From positions 620,001 to 684,000 of the forward strand of contig NC_007426.1 of the NCBI RefSeq assembly GCF_000026045.1: a DNA stretch of 64,000 bases, written 5' to 3'. This DNA comes from Natronomonas pharaonis DSM 2160. Lineage in GTDB: Archaea; Halobacteriota; Halobacteria; Halobacteriales; Haloarculaceae. The position numbers and the translations under genes are program-made. Below, one piece after another: positions 9,038 to 60,246 of the stretch (position 1 is its first letter; every line of letters starts with the position of its first letter). The notes beneath the pieces are model-generated. The model saw only the letters and a program-made list of their open reading frames with translations, searched no databases and had not been told where the DNA came from.

Positions 9038-9967
9038 TTATATCGACCTCGCTTTGATGAGCACGCTTTCGGCATCGACCGGTCCGTCGAGCCGTTCAGT
9101 ATCGTTTGCTAGCACGTACCGACCAAGCGTCGGGCCGGTGACGCGGTAGTACTGTCCGAGAACGACCTCCCGCATCTCCTCGACGACCACTTCGGTGTCG
9201 AGGGCGTCCATCGCCATCTGTTGGGCCTCTTCGAGGGTGATGCCGGTCAACTCCTCGGTCGCCTCCTTGTCGAAGATGACTTCGGTGACTTCGGTTCCAT
9301 CGTCGAGGACGCCCTTGATGCGGAGGTCGAACTCGCCTTCGACCTCGCCGTGTTCCGAGCAGCGGCCGTTCTGTAGGACTCGGGTGCAGTCGGGCTTCGG
9401 ACAGCGCTTGATGAGCCCGGACCCCGACTGGATATCGACGAGTGCGCCCTCTGTCTCGGTCGTGTCGTCGCCGACCTCGATATCCGTATCGAGCCGTTCG
9501 ATGTTCGTCGTCGAGTTGAGCTTCACCGAAAACCGGCCCTGGTACTCGTCGGTGACGACGTTTTCGAGCCGGTAGACCTCGTCTTCCTCCAGCGCCGGCA
9601 GGTCGCTTTTCTGCCATTTGGTGAACTTGACTGTCCCCGTCTCGTCGCCGAGTAGGCCGACCTGTGCGATGGAGTCGGCTCCCGGCTCCCAGAGGTCGAC
9701 GACCTTGACAGTCAAATCGAGCCACTCTTCCGGGGCGTCGATATCGGTGACCTCGGCCGACTGGCTGCTGCCGCCGGAGAGTTCGTCGCGGTCGATGTCG
9801 CTTTCGTCGATGTACGTCGAGACGACACTCCGTCGCGCCTCCTCAACAGGTACTTGGTACTCGGAAACGAGCGTCTCCAGCCGCGATTCGGTCTCGTCGA
9901 CGCTCTCGTCGATGGCGTCGGAGAACTGTTCGTGTATCTCAGTAGCGTGCTCTCGCAGGTCTGACAT
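9038..9967 (-). CDS. rpa: Replication protein A (single-stranded DNA-binding, OB fold and zinc finger)
   Basis: 309 residues. Seen: an N-terminal helical segment, an OB fold from about 80 to 165 (LTVKVVDLW, VGLLGDETGTVKFTKW), a zinc-finger motif with Cys189, Cys194, Cys203 and His206 (CPKPDC to CSEHG), and a second OB-like region to the end. It binds ssDNA during replication, repair and recombination. The ATG at 9967 matches the haloarchaeal N-terminus MSDLREHA. A TATA-like TTTTTATACC (complement of 10024-10033) lies about 60 bases upstream, suggesting a short leader, unlike most genes here. Confidence 0.93.
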   Translation of the reverse strand: MSDLREHATEIHEQFSDAIDESVDETESRLETLVSEYQVPVEEARRSVVSTYIDESDIDRDELSGGSSQSAEVTDIDAPEEWLDLTVKVVDLWEPGADSIAQVGLLGDETGTVKFTKWQKSDLPALEEDEVYRLENVVTDEYQGRFSVKLNSTTNIERLDTDIEVGDDTTETEGALVDIQSGSGLIKRCPKPDCTRVLQNGRCSEHGEVEGEFDLRIKGVLDDGTEVTEVIFDKEATEELTGITLEEAQQMAMDALDTEVVVEEMREVVLGQYYRVTGPTLGRYVLANDTERLDGPVDAESVLIKARSI

Positions 9968-10127
9968 GGTGATTCCGTCTCCGCGTGGTTTCAGTGGGAG
10001 ACGTACGCCGATTGGTGCCGGATGGTATAAAAATCGTCGGTGGCGCGGCGAAAGTGAAACTGTTAGCCCGCAAACGACCGATTTCCGGAAGGATACGCTC
10101 TTGGTGCCGTGCCGTCTTTCATCCGGT

Positions 10128-35825: not shown

Positions 35826-35959
35826 AGGCTCCGGTCGGTTCCCGCCGCTTGTAAGCCTTCTCTCTCGACCATTGCTGTCGACAGCCGACAAAGCAACCCC
35901 CGACGCCGTCTCGTACCGAACGGAAAAGGTTGATAACTGCGAGTAGACTACGGGGCACC

Positions 35960-38185
35960 GTGTCTAGCGCTGTAGACGATGATGTCGCCCGCACGGTCGC
36001 GCAGGGCCGTGCCTCGCTCGGCGTTCTTCTGCGGAACGCACAGAAGCATCTGCAGAAGGTCTTTATCGTCTTTCTGCTCGGCTTTCTGGGGACGTTCATG
36101 GCCCTGCGGCTCTATATTTGGGATATTCTCAAGCGGGACCTGAACGCCCATCCGGACATCGTCGTCGTTGCCATCACGCCGTTTGAGGTTATTCTCTTGC
36201 AGGCGAAAATCGGACTGGCGGCTGGGGTTATCATTATGCTGCCGGCGCTTGCCTACTTCAGCCGCAACTCGCTGAAGGCGAGAGGCTACTGGCCGCAGAA
36301 CATCCCCCGATGGAAAGCCGTCTCCTTCGTCATCGCCAGCGCCACGCTCTTTGTCGGCGGTATCGCATACGCCTACTACCTCTTTTTCCCCATCATGTTC
36401 TCGTTCCTCGCCGGCAACGCGGTCAACGCCGGCTTCCAGCCCACGTACTCGATTTCGATGTGGGCGCAGTTCATCTTCCTGTTGGCGTTTTCCTTTGGGC
36501 TGGCAGCACAACTCCCGCTCTTCATGGGGACGCTTTCGTACAGCGAAATCGTCCGCTATGAGACCTTCCGGGATAAGTGGAAATACGCCGTTATCGGTAT
36601 CTTCGCTTTCGGGGCGCTGTTTTCGCCACCGGACCCCTTCACCCAAATCATGTGGGGTGTTCCGCTCGTCACACTGTACGGCGTCTCGCTGTATATCTCA
36701 AAAATCGTCGTTACGGCCAAGCGGTCCAGCGATGCCATCGACCTCAAGGGGACCGCCAGAGCCCGCTGGAATATCCTCGCCGGGCTGTTCGTCGTCGGCG
36801 CGGCGGCCGTCTACGCCTTCTACACCTACGGCGGCTACCTTGCGGTCAATGACGCCCTCGCCGCTGTCGATTCGAGCTATCGGTTCCTGCCGCCCGGCGA
36901 GGGCTACGGCATCGCCGAGACGATCTATCTTGGTATCGCTGGCGCTATCTACGGCGCTGTCTTTGCGGCCGCAGGATTCGGCTACCTCGTCTACAGCGGC
37001 CTGCAGTCGACCGACGACGGCTACGCGCTCATCGCTGACGACCCCGAGGATATCGACCTGCAGGAACTGGACGCCGCGAGCATCCGTGCGGCTCCCGACG
37101 CCGTCTTCGAGGACCTCGACGAGGACCGCGCCGTCGCACTAGCCGGACAGGCCATGGAAGCCGACGAGCACGGGCGCGCGCAGGCTATCCTCGACCGCTT
37201 CGACCAAGCGCAGGAAGCCGCCGAGGCGTCGGACGCGGACGCCGACCGGGACGTTGACGACGACGCTGCCGACGATGCCGCTGGCGATGGTGCCGCTACT
37301 GCCGCCGCTGCCGGCGACGAGGCGGAGAGCAGTTTCCTCGCCAGCCGAGGCGCTGGTGTCCTTGATGCGTTCAGCGAAGACGACATCGACGAAGACGATG
37401 TCGGCGGCTACGCCTACGATATCGCTTTCGTCGTCGACAGCATCACCTCGAAGTCATTCTACCTGTTCGGCGTCTTCGCGGGCATCATGGCTGCGACGTT
37501 CTTCCTCCTCTACCGCGGGGGAATCGGCGTCCTCCACGAACAGTTCGTCAGCCGGATGCCATCACAGTTCACTGCCGAACAGGTCTCTATCGTTACGCTC
37601 CATCCGGTCGAGGCGCTCATCTTCATGGTGAAAGTCTCAGTCGTCCTCGGCGTTGCCGCCGTGTTGCCGTTGTTGCTGTACTTCGCATGGCCGTCGCTGA
37701 AGACACGGGGCCTCGCCCGCGGCGACCGGCGGGTACTGCTGGTGTGGGGCGGCACGCTCGTGACCGCGCTCGGCATCGGTAGCTATCTCGGCTTCTTCCA
37801 TGTCGCTCCGGCGGTCATCTCGTGGCTCGCTGCTGATGTCCTCACGGCGGGCCGAGAGGGGATGGTCATCGCCTACCGTATCAACAACTACGGCTGGATG
37901 GTGTTCTTCCTGACTGTCGGTATCGGTATCCTCGCGATGATTCCGGCCACGATGCTGCTGTTCTACCGGGGCGGCATCGTGCCCTACCTGACGATGCGAA
38001 CCCGCTGGCGGGAGTTCGTCGTCCTCGTGTTCGGGCTCGCGGCCGTCTTCTCGCCGCGCGGCATCTTCACGATGTTCCTGCTTGGTATCCCCGTCGTCTT
38101 CGCCTACGGGGTCGGGCTCGGACTGCTGTGGATGCTCACGCTCGACGGTCGGCGGGAGCGGCGACAGGTAGAACCCGCCGACTGA
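35960..38185 (+). CDS. tatCt: TatCt, tandem fused TatC translocase subunit
   Basis: 741 residues containing two TatC domains (about 25-260 and about 500-735) joined by extra membrane helices and a long acidic linker (about 365-490). Each half keeps the cytoplasmic loop YFSRNSLKARGYWP or YFAWPSLKTRGLARG and the FSP motif (LFSPPDPF, VFSPRGIF). Such two-domain TatC proteins are a known peculiarity of haloarchaea. GTG 35960 is used; a weak TATA-like TTGATAAC lies about 28 bases upstream. Confidence 0.93.
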   Translation: MSSAVDDDVARTVAQGRASLGVLLRNAQKHLQKVFIVFLLGFLGTFMALRLYIWDILKRDLNAHPDIVVVAITPFEVILLQAKIGLAAGVIIMLPALAYFSRNSLKARGYWPQNIPRWKAVSFVIASATLFVGGIAYAYYLFFPIMFSFLAGNAVNAGFQPTYSISMWAQFIFLLAFSFGLAAQLPLFMGTLSYSEIVRYETFRDKWKYAVIGIFAFGALFSPPDPFTQIMWGVPLVTLYGVSLYISKIVVTAKRSSDAIDLKGTARARWNILAGLFVVGAAAVYAFYTYGGYLAVNDALAAVDSSYRFLPPGEGYGIAETIYLGIAGAIYGAVFAAAGFGYLVYSGLQSTDDGYALIADDPEDIDLQELDAASIRAAPDAVFEDLDEDRAVALAGQAMEADEHGRAQAILDRFDQAQEAAEASDADADRDVDDDAADDAAGDGAATAAAAGDEAESSFLASRGAGVLDAFSEDDIDEDDVGGYAYDIAFVVDSITSKSFYLFGVFAGIMAATFFLLYRGGIGVLHEQFVSRMPSQFTAEQVSIVTLHPVEALIFMVKVSVVLGVAAVLPLLLYFAWPSLKTRGLARGDRRVLLVWGGTLVTALGIGSYLGFFHVAPAVISWLAADVLTAGREGMVIAYRINNYGWMVFFLTVGIGILAMIPATMLLFYRGGIVPYLTMRTRWREFVVLVFGLAAVFSPRGIFTMFLLGIPVVFAYGVGLGLLWMLTLDGRRERRQVEPAD

Positions 38186-57353: not shown

Positions 57354-57443
57354 TCTGGGAAGTGCTGACAATTTTTGCTCAACTCCGGGGCTACGTGGCG
57401 CCGTGTAACAAAACTTAAGCGGGTCCACGCCTCGGTACACCGT

Positions 57444-59663
57444 ATGCTACCGGCGTTTCCGCTACAGGCAAACGAGGAAGTCACCCGCCAGACCTTCTGG
57501 CTGATCTCGAACTACGAGAAGGTCCTGTTTTACTTCCTTGCGACCCTCACCGTTGCGGTGTTCGTCTACGGGACGTACCAGCGGTTCGCCCGCTATGCCG
57601 ACGGCGAAGACGACTGGTTCGACCGTCTCGACAACCTCTCCGGACGCATCGCTTCGGCGGCGAAGATAGCCGCCTCGAACGAAAAGCAATTCAACCGTGA
57701 CCTGGTCGGCGGCCTGATGCACGCGTTCATCCTCTGGGGCTTTTTGACGCTGCTTATCGCGACGACCATCCTCTTTATCGATGAGTGGTATCGCGTCTTC
57801 ACCATCGCCCTCGGCGAGCGGCAGTCCTTCTGGGTCGGTGACTTCTATCTGTCCTACCAGCTCGTGACCGACGCGCTCGGGCTGCTGTTCGTCGTCGGTC
57901 TCGGCATCGCTCTGTGGCGACGCTACGTCGTCCGAACCGAGCGCCTGTGGGGCAAGCACACGAACTGGGAGGACGCCTTCCTCGTGTGGTCGCTGTTCCT
58001 CATCGGCATCGGCGGCTTCCTGCTCGAAGGGCTCCGCATTGTCGGCGCAAGCGAGCCCATCACGGCCGTTGAGCCGGTGAGCTTCGTCGGCACGGCAACC
58101 GCGCTTGGCCTCGCCGGCATCGGCGTCAACGAGTCGATAGCCGCCGCGGTCTACCCCGTCGCGTGGTGGTCTCATGCCCTGCTTTCGTTCCTCTTCATCG
58201 CCGCTATCCCGTACGCCAAGCCGTTCCACATGCTCTCGTCGTTCGCGAACGTCGTCACTCGCGACGAGAAGGCCGGCGCACGGCTGCCGGGCGTCCCCTC
58301 CGACCTTGACGCCACCAACGCCGAATCCATCGACGACTTCTCCTGGAAGGAGATGCTTGACCAGGACGCCTGTACGAAGTGTGGACGCTGTTCGTCGGTT
58401 TGTCCGGCGAAGGCGTCCGGACGGCCGCTCGACCCCCGTGACGTCATCCTCGACCTCAAGGAATACCGTCGCTCGCTTGAGACGGACGACGACGCCGAGA
58501 CGATGGACATCGTCGCCGACGGCGGCGAATCGGTCATCGACGCCGAGACGATGGAGTCTTGTATGTCCTGTATGGCCTGCATGGACGCCTGTCCGGTCGA
58601 AATCGAGCACCTCAAGAGCTTCACGCGGATGAACCGCCAGCTCGCAGACCAAGGTGATATCCAGCCGAGTATGCAGGAAGTCTTCCAGAACGTCATGACG
58701 AAGGGCAACACCTTCGGCGACTCGCCGGGTGCCCGCGGCGACTGGACCGAGGAGCTTGACTTCGAGGTAACTGACGCCCGAGATACAGACGTTGAATACC
58801 TCTGGTACGTCGGTGACTACCCCTCCTACGACGACCGCAACAAGAAGGTCGCCCGCTCGCTGGCAAAAATCTTCGAACACGCTGACGCCGAGGTCGGCAT
58901 CCTCTACGACGAGGAGGTCTACGACGGCAACGACATCCGACGCGTCGGCGAGGAGTTCCTCTACGTCGAGCAGGCCGGTACGCTCATCGACTCCTTCGAG
59001 GACTGTGCGTTCGAGAAAATCGTCTGTACGGACCCCCACTCCTACAACACGTTCAAAAACGAGTACCCCGAGGTCGACTTCGAGGAGTTCGCCGACGACC
59101 CCATGATGGAGTTCGACATCGAGGGCTACTGGAACGAAAGCGGCGATATCGAGGTCCAGCACTGGACGCAGACGGTCGAAGAGCTCGTCGAGACCGGCGC
59201 GGTCGCGCTTGATGGCACCGAACTCGACTACACGGTCACCTACCACGACCCGTGTCACCTCGGCCGATACAACGACGAGTACGAGGCGCCGCGTGAACTC
59301 GTCCGCGCCACGGGCTGTGACCTCCATGAGATGCCCCGCAACCGTGACAACAGCTTCTGCTGCGGTGGCGGCGGTGGCGGCCTCTGGATGGAACTCGAAG
59401 AAGAAGAAAAGCCAAGCGAGGAACGGCTCCGCGAGGCCCTCGAAGACACCGAGGCCGGCAGTGCTGTCGAGAAGTTCGTCGTCGCTTGCCCGATGTGCAT
59501 GACGATGTACGAAGACGGCCGCAAGACCGGCGGCTTCGAGGACGACATCGAAATCGTCGACATCGCTGAACTCATCGTCGAGGCGCTGGACGCCAAGAAC
59601 GCGACGATTACGGCTTCGGCTGACGCTGACGCCGGTACCGGCGCCGCACCGGCCGACGACTGA
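57444..59663 (+). CDS. etfD: EtfD-like membrane Fe-S oxidoreductase (NarI/GlpC/CCG)
   Basis: 739 residues. Order: N-terminal NarI-like membrane domain with about five to six helices (25-270), two [4Fe-4S] motifs (Cys310/313/316/320 and Cys373/376/379/383), then two CCG-type modules. The second module is complete (DPCHLGRY, SFCCGGGGG, ACPMC) but the first has lost its cysteines (VGDYPSYD, EEVYDGND, TDPHSYN). The architecture is that of EtfD, which passes electrons from electron-transfer flavoprotein to menaquinone. A TATA-like AACTTAAG lies at leaderless distance from ATG 57444. Confidence 0.88.
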   Translation: MLPAFPLQANEEVTRQTFWLISNYEKVLFYFLATLTVAVFVYGTYQRFARYADGEDDWFDRLDNLSGRIASAAKIAASNEKQFNRDLVGGLMHAFILWGFLTLLIATTILFIDEWYRVFTIALGERQSFWVGDFYLSYQLVTDALGLLFVVGLGIALWRRYVVRTERLWGKHTNWEDAFLVWSLFLIGIGGFLLEGLRIVGASEPITAVEPVSFVGTATALGLAGIGVNESIAAAVYPVAWWSHALLSFLFIAAIPYAKPFHMLSSFANVVTRDEKAGARLPGVPSDLDATNAESIDDFSWKEMLDQDACTKCGRCSSVCPAKASGRPLDPRDVILDLKEYRRSLETDDDAETMDIVADGGESVIDAETMESCMSCMACMDACPVEIEHLKSFTRMNRQLADQGDIQPSMQEVFQNVMTKGNTFGDSPGARGDWTEELDFEVTDARDTDVEYLWYVGDYPSYDDRNKKVARSLAKIFEHADAEVGILYDEEVYDGNDIRRVGEEFLYVEQAGTLIDSFEDCAFEKIVCTDPHSYNTFKNEYPEVDFEEFADDPMMEFDIEGYWNESGDIEVQHWTQTVEELVETGAVALDGTELDYTVTYHDPCHLGRYNDEYEAPRELVRATGCDLHEMPRNRDNSFCCGGGGGGLWMELEEEEKPSEERLREALEDTEAGSAVEKFVVACPMCMTMYEDGRKTGGFEDDIEIVDIAELIVEALDAKNATITASADADAGTGAAPADD

Positions 59664-59695
59664 CGCCGTCGCTTCCGTCTCTTTCCCCCCGGACG

Positions 59696-59704
59696 TTTAT
59701 ATAC
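59696..59704 (+). promoter_or_regulatory. TATA box of candidate small RNA 2
   Basis: TTTATATAC lies 32 bases after the etfD stop, with no sense gene behind it. It is 22 bases before TGCGCTGAG, the identical arrangement to the box at 22177-22185. Confidence 0.65.
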
Positions 59705-59726
59705 AATACCGGGGCCATCGGCGATA

Positions 59727-59802
59727 TGCGCTGAGAACACGTGGCCGGCGGTCCAGCGGGAGCGCGGCACGCCGCCGGCCAGCAGCCCCCGCCGCCTGCT
59801 CG
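59727..59802 (+). ncRNA. Candidate structured small RNA 2
   Basis: The transcript would start near TGCGCTGAG. It contains a 9-base perfect inverted repeat GGCCGGCGG (59743-59751) with CCGCCGGCC (59772-59780), an inner AGCGCGG and a second small repeat AGCAG/CTGCT (59781-59785, 59796-59800). The layout parallels candidate RNA 1. ATG at 59726 meets a stop after one codon, so it is not coding. It fills the gap between convergent etfD and thioesterase and may extend antisense into the latter. The 3' end is unknown. Confidence 0.5.
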
Positions 59803-60246
59803 TTACTTACCGTTGGTGTACTCGTCGTCGCCGCTGTGCCACGCAGACCCGCCGTTGCCGCCGCCCGTTTTGTAGGTCCCGCGGGCGGTTGCGACGGTCG
59901 TTCCCGACTCGTCTGTCACCTCGATGTCGACGGCGGCGACGCTGTCCCCGTTTCGGACGACCTCGGCCTCGGCGTCGAGACGCCCTCCGGTCGCCGGCGA
60001 GAGATAGTCGATACGCATATCGATAGTCGGCGTGACGGTGAAGTTCGCCGAGATGACCGCGGCCCCGCCAACCGTGTCAGCAAGCGCATACGCCACGCCG
60101 CCGTGTGCGACCAGCCGGTTCGGGTTCGAGGAGTGTTCAGTGCCGAGTTCGAGATGGCCGACCGCACGGCCGTCGGCCGCCTCGGTGACCTCGATACCGA
60201 GATGGTCGTTGAACGGCATCTCCGAGAACATGTCCGTGACGTCCAT
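59803..60246 (-). CDS. PaaI-like hotdog-fold thioesterase
   Basis: 147 residues, hotdog fold with the PaaI pattern: FNDHLGIEVTEAADGRAVGHLELG, NPNRLVAHGGVAYALADTVGG (the catalytic HGG region) and IDMRIDYLSPATGGRLDAEAEVV. It hydrolyses acyl-CoAs such as phenylacetyl- or hydroxyphenylacetyl-CoA, or acts as a general housekeeping thioesterase. Being next to EtfD could link it to acyl-CoA oxidation. ATG 60246 is chosen. Confidence 0.87.
   Translation of the reverse strand: MDVTDMFSEMPFNDHLGIEVTEAADGRAVGHLELGTEHSSNPNRLVAHGGVAYALADTVGGAAVISANFTVTPTIDMRIDYLSPATGGRLDAEAEVVRNGDSVAAVDIEVTDESGTTVATARGTYKTGGGNGGSAWHSGDDEYTNGK

Follow-up and report, generated by a model that had tools for sequence, protein, structure and literature searches.

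The intergenic DNA between an etfD-like gene and a facing thioesterase gene of Natronomonas pharaonis DSM 2160 raises the question of whether a TATA box followed by a GC-rich hairpin marks a small RNA gene and, if it does, what kind of RNA such a gene would produce. The locus lies in a window of 64,000 nucleotides, by which we mean the whole stretch of DNA that was analysed, and a sequence-only reading had singled it out for a perfect 9-base arm pair enclosing a 20-base loop. The arms are found as described, with GGCCGGCGG at 59743-59751 matching CCGCCGGCC at 59772-59780 without a mismatch and a loop of 20 bases, TCCAGCGGGAGCGCGGCACG, between them, and on extension the stem reaches 11 pairs (59742-59752 with 59771-59781). 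The comparison of folding energy with shuffled sequence, which had been proposed as a check, was run and gave no excess stability. The 78-nt stretch on the plus strand has a minimum free energy of -35.6, where shuffled sequences average -36.35 (z = 0.23); 115 of 200 shuffles fold at least as well, and the minus strand of the window copy does worse (z 1.32 versus shuffles). Since the energy is about that of shuffled sequence, the energy test is uninformative in DNA this rich in GC. The signal that does rise above chance is conservation: the promoter, the 5' end, the pairing of the hairpin stem (P1) and of a second helix (P2), and the 3' tail recur at 10 sites in the same genome and in many other haloarchaea. 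As a predicted structure the hairpin is confirmed to be real, by comparison and not by folding energy.

When the intergenic DNA of the window copy was used as a query against its own genome (2,749,696 bases in 3 contigs), a first paralogue appeared at 604879-604916 on the minus strand, with 92% identity over the promoter and 5' end. The two loci have in common the TATA box, a CGNGGCCA element, TATGCGCTG, a core GCGGGNGNGCGGCA and a 3' GCCGCCTG, and their similarity drops beyond the promoter and the tail. Their arm sequences are unlike, yet the pairing is kept in both. Relatives also carry matches that start at the TATA box. A covariance model (R1) was made from nine founding sequences, with the helix between the loop and the downstream strand, P2, as the sole structure in the model; its E-values are rough, according to the tool's own warning. 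The window copy, itself among the nine founders, scores 102.2 bits at 59694-59807. Ten clear copies are present in the genome (E 2.4e-24 to 1.2e-7), two of them inside the window (59694-59807 and 22175-22289), and the next match, at 9906-10006 (E 0.0055), is a protein gene. Another hit of the intergenic query in this genome, L003, was rejected as lying inside a long open reading frame whose translation has P-type ATPase character.

The family extends well beyond this species. Of the 146 genomes examined in the taxonomic family, 119 have an R1 match at E 0.001 or better. Among 293 genomes drawn from the order, 167 have a match at 1e-4, and these represent 50 of 87 genera and at least 11 family labels. 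Full scoring of eight chosen genomes gave 56, 55, 41, 29, 29, 28, 28 and 2 copies, and a strict pattern search identified as named carriers Halolamina pelagica, Halobellus captivus and one Halobacteriales MAG (3 records). Among the genomes listed from the same taxonomic family, none of the six from g4 and none of the seven from g5 has an R1 match, and such copy-free genera suggest that R1 does not match by chance in GC-rich haloarchaea. The listed g2 and g7 genomes, like the g4 and g5 genera, are free of copies although adjacent genera have many. Viral contigs yielded 0 exact pattern matches; in a plasmid search with the RNA as query, none of the matches listed (20 of 179 records) spanned more than 57% of it, and an RNA homologue was not found in two more plasmid searches. 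This comparison across genomes shows the predicted RNA of the window to be a member of a dispersed, multicopy haloarchaeal family with a conserved, pseudoknotted structure.

Two sets of copies were used to describe this family, A4 with 99 copies from the taxonomic family and A5 with 40 copies from other families of the order. In 135 of 136 scorable copies the TATA box lies 30 or 31 nt from the predicted +1, the predicted start is a pyrimidine-purine (Y-R) step in 99/99 A4 copies, and a CGNNRCCA element stands between the TATA box and +1, at about -16. In the N. pharaonis genome the pattern TATA-N7-CGNNRCCA-N8-RTG has 9 matches, 8 at family RNAs and 1 before a DUF7382 gene (L093 1501-1601; C1:9906-10006, minus strand), and a reversed-pattern control has 0. 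The DUF7382 promoter, the sole match in this genome outside the family RNAs, combines a TATA box and CGNNRCCA with an ATG placed exactly at the predicted +1, which supports +1 as a leaderless start. A similar promoter, consisting of a TATA box and CGGGACCA with a spacing that is off by one, precedes a possible leaderless GTG gene at L094 (C1:1558724-1558785, minus strand). With a promoter of its own and a fixed start spacing, the window locus qualifies as a predicted independent sRNA gene. The claim of the sequence-only reading that a non-coding RNA with its own promoter starts near 59727 is strongly supported by the comparative evidence, the predicted +1 being 59726 and transcription being inferred. 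The common CGNNRCCA element suggests that all copies may be switched on together, and a promoter element that is so nearly private points to a dedicated regulator or a core-promoter variant.

The genomic setting of the copies bears on two further explanations. Neighbours were assigned with a crude ORF caller that errs in places, having missed the thioesterase at the window copy. By these assignments a co-oriented gene precedes 70 of 99 copies, which is what would be seen if each copy were merely the 3' UTR or terminator of the gene upstream with no independent transcript, but we find this scarcely credible. The remaining 29/99 copies lie behind a divergent gene and cannot be its 3' UTR, the promoter spacing is fixed, and no T-run terminator follows the tail (T4 in 6/139 copies versus 2/139 in a control). 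It could also be supposed that each copy acts as an antisense regulator of its neighbour by overlapping the 3' end of the facing gene, given that 62/99 copies have a convergent gene downstream and that the window tail overlaps the thioesterase stop (59803-59805 on the opposite strand). Such a role is improbable as about one third of the copies face no gene, the adjacent genes are diverse, and the tail sequence stays constant regardless of the neighbour. Certain sites do recur in several congeners, namely the 3' side of an etfD-like gene and a position facing a thioesterase, and this recurrence across relatives indicates that copies are inherited in place. At the window copy, the gene beyond the thioesterase encodes a TrpY-family regulator. 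Elsewhere the neighbour genes are of many kinds and provide no functional hint.

Support for the structure comes foremost from P1, whose arms differ from copy to copy and yet pair within copies and not between them. There are 84 distinct P1 5' arms among 99 copies. A stem of at least 8 bp forms from a copy's own arms in 96/97 and 37/39 copies, whereas swapping arms between copies lowers this to 16.7% and 11.1%. In A4 the mean stem measures 10.0 bp, versus 6.1 with exchanged arms, and in A5 9.6 bp versus 5.8. The second helix, P2, pairs the P1 loop with a downstream strand (GCGGC with GCCGC in the window copy) and crosses P1, giving an H-type pseudoknot. In P2, 98.3% of cells are paired, all seven pairs change on both sides, and covariation is 0.596 versus 0.226 for shuffled sequence and at most 0.157 for slid versions. 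The full 7 bp form in 85/99 copies and five of the seven in the window copy. Because P2 was built into the model behind the alignment, the alignment is biased in its favour; five or more different P2 pairings are already seen in a MAFFT alignment of the nine founding sequences that used no structure. Within the loop, both pairs of a possible mini hairpin in the core GCGNNNGY can form in 132/136 copies, but this sequence is near-fixed and so offers little covariation. Pairing of core GCGGG with tail UUCGC was not accompanied by compensating changes when inspected by eye.

Downstream of the pseudoknot the tail, CTGTTCGCYA, is 88-99% conserved in the columns of CTGTTCGC across 139 copies, and conservation ends there. 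Complementarity of the tail and the 5' end to the 16S/23S rRNA of the genome was not above that of shuffled motifs, the 8-mer tail having 2 matches versus a mean of 4.0. A second hairpin, AGCAG with CTGCT, had also been read from the window sequence just before the thioesterase stop. Both halves are indeed present there (59781-59785 and 59796-59800), but the hairpin does not hold as a feature of the family, for pairing between linker and tail averages 3.59 bp versus 3.46 bp with shuffled linkers over 136 copies.

These patterns also bear on the suggestion that the copies are a mobile or selfish element that has dispersed through the genome and is structured only as a by-product of its spreading. 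Many copies at unrelated sites would agree with it, and terminal repeats and target-site duplications were not examined. We nevertheless give it very little credence: the arms vary in sequence and stay paired, similarity between the window copy and its paralogue falls away outside the promoter and tail, and copies after etfD or facing the thioesterase recur across species. The features of the window copy are collected below together with those of the second family member and the flanking genes.

Table 1. Predicted and annotated features in the window, with the basis of each assignment.
Feature	Position	Strand	Basis
TATA box TTTATATA, the RNA's own promoter	59696..59703	+	Sequence; fixed distance to predicted +1
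Family-specific promoter element CGGGGCCA, consensus CGNNRCCA	59710..59717	+	Pattern search TATA-N7-CGNNRCCA-N8-RTG
Predicted RNA, about 80 nt, from Y-R start purine to end of conserved tail	59726..59805	+	R1 match; ends inferred, unmapped
5'-terminal start-codon-stop unit, ATG CGC TGA	59726..59734	+	Codon counts in 139 copies
P1 5' arm	59742..59752	+	Own-copy versus swapped-arm pairing
P1 3' arm	59771..59781	+	Own-copy versus swapped-arm pairing
GCGGGAGC, conserved core (GCGNNNGY) that could form a mini hairpin of two base pairs	59756..59763	+	Pairing possible in 132/136
P2 5' strand GCGGCAC, 5/7 pairs formed in the window copy	59764..59770	+	P2 covariation
P2 3' strand CCGCCGC	59789..59795	+	P2 covariation
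3' tail CTGCTCGTTA, consensus CTGTTCGCYA; final three bases complement the thioesterase stop codon	59796..59805	+	Tail conservation, 139 copies
Second family member, from promoter through tail, its predicted RNA (GTG CGT TGA) starting at 22207	22175..22289	+	R1 59.0 bits, E 9.9e-13
Upstream gene: 4Fe-4S and CCG-domain membrane protein (the etfD of the sequence-only reading)	57375..59663	+	ORF; Fer4 and CCG domains
Facing gene: hotdog-fold thioesterase	59803..60246	-	4HBT 6.4e-17; TIGR00369 over cut-off

The predicted 5' end of the RNA carries a further conserved element. It had been remarked that no coding frame longer than one codon is possible after the TATA box, and the frame at the predicted start of the window copy is solely ATG CGC TGA; this is more than an absence of coding, however, since the start-codon-stop unit is itself conserved. 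Codon 1 of the 139 copies is GTG in 92, ATG in 42 and ATC in 5, so that 134/139 start with RUG, and codon 3 is TGA in 131, TAA in 4 and TAG, TGG, CGC and TGC in 1 each, which places a stop in 136/139. The sense codon between them is mostly CGC or ACC. Among the exceptions, the TGG copy (L084, from the N. pharaonis genome) has TAG as its next codon and the TGC copy has ATC where a start codon is expected; the stop is kept in 4/5 of the ATC-starting copies in A4/A5. When codons 1-3 were left free in the search, the 78 matches listed contained five more TAA, four more TAG and no TGG. Over A4/A5 and the free-codon matches, TGA is replaced by TAA (9), TAG (5) and TGG once (L084), and stop codon positions 2 and 3 are linked as they are in stop codons (Fisher p = 5.7e-6). 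The table for this test was assembled by hand: 12 duplicate TGA rows were taken out and one TAG row, read by eye, was put in. In the 139 A4/A5 copies alone the dependence is not significant (p = 0.07). A motif requiring at least one A after U would avoid TGG too. As for a small protein-coding mRNA, no conserved frame exceeding a few codons was found. One copy, L088 (C1:696392-696541, minus strand), has no early stop; 44 nt separate its P1 from its P2, and an additional strong hairpin lies in this linker.

Taken together with the pseudoknot, the start-codon-stop unit allows a mechanism to be proposed, although one we hold tentatively and at somewhat less than an even chance: a leaderless two-codon minigene would bring a ribosome onto the RNA and, with the stop codon occupying the A site and the pseudoknot facing the mRNA entrance, would park or sense ribosomes. 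In this scheme RUG-NNN-stop at the 5' end would let a ribosome load directly, and reading of a single codon would take it to the stop. Beginning about 7 nt past the stop, the H-type pseudoknot would then lie at the mRNA entrance, and the ribosome would be parked, slowed or sensed at a defined place on the RNA. Transcription, ribosome loading, a pause at the A-site stop against the pseudoknot and the idea that this is the function are all inferred, as there are no expression data. The spacer between stop and P1 is 6-8 nt in 125/136 copies, a figure that depends on defining P1 as a contiguous stem, and spacers studied for structural stimulators of the ribosome at the mRNA entrance are 5-9 nt (PMC5009743), so the geometry would fit the entrance model. 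The partner would be stoichiometric, either the ribosome or a translation factor; many copies of unrelated P1 sequence and the same shape fit a stoichiometric partner better than they fit pairing with a single mRNA.

Leaderless initiation is itself the main route in haloarchaea, and for Haloferax volcanii one study gives 72% of protein-coding transcripts as leaderless (PMC4983044). In that study GUG makes up 6% of leaderless starts and GUG transcripts are lower in coverage (PMC4983044). GTG is the commonest start in this family (92/139) and a minor one in H. volcanii, so initiation may be weak, and this counts against the mechanism. The main rival of ribosome parking is that the RNA is an RNP scaffold in which a protein binds pseudoknot, core and tail, while the start-stop unit does no more than eject ribosomes loaded at the leaderless 5' end and so spares the RNA from unfolding. 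The core and tail are the best conserved parts, unlike the start codon, which may be GTG, ATG or ATC, and the predominance of GTG looks as if strong initiation were unwanted. We regard the scaffold as unlikely though far from negligible, because the simplest guard would be to have no RUG start, yet 134/139 copies start with RUG, and because no partner protein has been identified. Our wider reading would be that this is a new class of RNA, the product of dispersed and co-regulated genes numbering up to dozens per haloarchaeal genome, in which a leaderless minigene is fused to a pseudoknot so that ribosomes are held or counted at a stop codon, giving archaea dependent on leaderless initiation a global translation brake or sensor. 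It is likewise advanced only as a possibility, and one that falls short of even odds.

Minigenes of this kind are known from bacteria. The phage lambda bar minigenes, like the 5' end of the family RNA, place a single sense codon between start and stop codons. They differ in being leadered, in occupying single phage loci and in being bacterial, and they are not known to have a conserved downstream pseudoknot. Box C/D guide RNAs are framed by the C motif RUGAUGA and the D motif CUGA. A guide RNA of this type was considered and rejected for the family, whose conserved 5' end is RUGNNCUGA; box C is not recurrent in the 99-copy alignment and there is no Rfam C/D match. Among recoding signals, the pseudoknot at the gag stop of MuLV bears a likeness in lying a few nt past a stop or shift site, at the mRNA entrance (PMC5009743). 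In contrast, recoding pseudoknots sit within long frames and yield extended proteins, and the family RNA has no conserved frame beyond its stop.

The nearest working haloarchaeal example of a mini-ORF with a downstream stem is CreT of the CreTA system of Haloarcula hispanica and H. hubeiense, a small RNA in which a short mini-ORF near the 5' end stops at UGA and precedes a stable stem (PMC8501985). CreT of H. hubeiense is leaderless (PMC8501985), as the family RNA is predicted to be. The features that define CreT are met in part, for a mini-ORF and downstream stem are present (RUG-NNN-stop in 136/139 copies, with five of the 139 beginning RUC, and P1 about 7 nt on), while two consecutive rare codons are lacking since there is only one sense codon, whose rarity was not measured. 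The family RNA also differs in having a pseudoknot and not a plain stem-loop, its own promoter element and up to dozens of chromosomal copies, and the immediate neighbours of the window copy are not cas genes. CreT is further marked by a creA antitoxin next to it whose sequence resembles a CRISPR repeat; the genes around the window copy encode an Fe-S protein, a thioesterase and a TrpY-family regulator. One might still ask whether the family RNA ties up a tRNA through its mini-ORF and downstream stem and so slows growth, as the leaderless H. hubeiense RNA with its mini-ORF, UGA stop and downstream stem-loop would suggest (PMC8501985). This appears decidedly improbable, as CreT needs its two consecutive rare codons whereas the single sense codon here is mostly CGC or ACC, and as many as 56 chromosomal copies would be hard to tolerate.

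Among haloarchaeal small RNAs, those of H. volcanii that have ribosome occupancy without detectable protein (for example sRNA_61) have been described (PMC12482152); none was matched to this family, no sequences having been compared. Rfam 15 gave no match at the window RNA at gathering or permissive thresholds, and six further copies gave none up to E 1. No such family is described in the literature covered, including passages of PMC6490895, PMC4983044, PMC12482152, PMC8501985 and PMC5009743, although supplementary tables were not part of this and single members may figure elsewhere as unnamed sRNAs. The RNA class thus appears to be new and apparently not described before, while its mechanism is open. 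It is absent from Rfam 15 although there are 10 copies in its own genome and 28 to 56 in seven of the eight fully counted genomes. If the start-stop unit is used, the leaderless 5' end would serve this non-coding RNA to recruit ribosomes on purpose. It would then become testable what many uncharacterised, ribosome-occupied sRNAs of haloarchaea do, and whether leaderless initiation serves as a regulatory input.

Two other loci of the window deserve mention. The only Rfam match in the window at gathering, to IRE_II at 35955-35985 on the minus strand, is a weak one just above that threshold (32.4 bits, E 0.023); since an iron response element would be implausible in an archaeon, a hairpin arising by chance is the probable explanation. 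The second family member, at 22175-22289, is more divergent, with a partly degenerate P2 and a TATA box that abuts the stop codon of the preceding gene; it may well be the first candidate locus mentioned in the sequence-only reading, although this is a guess.
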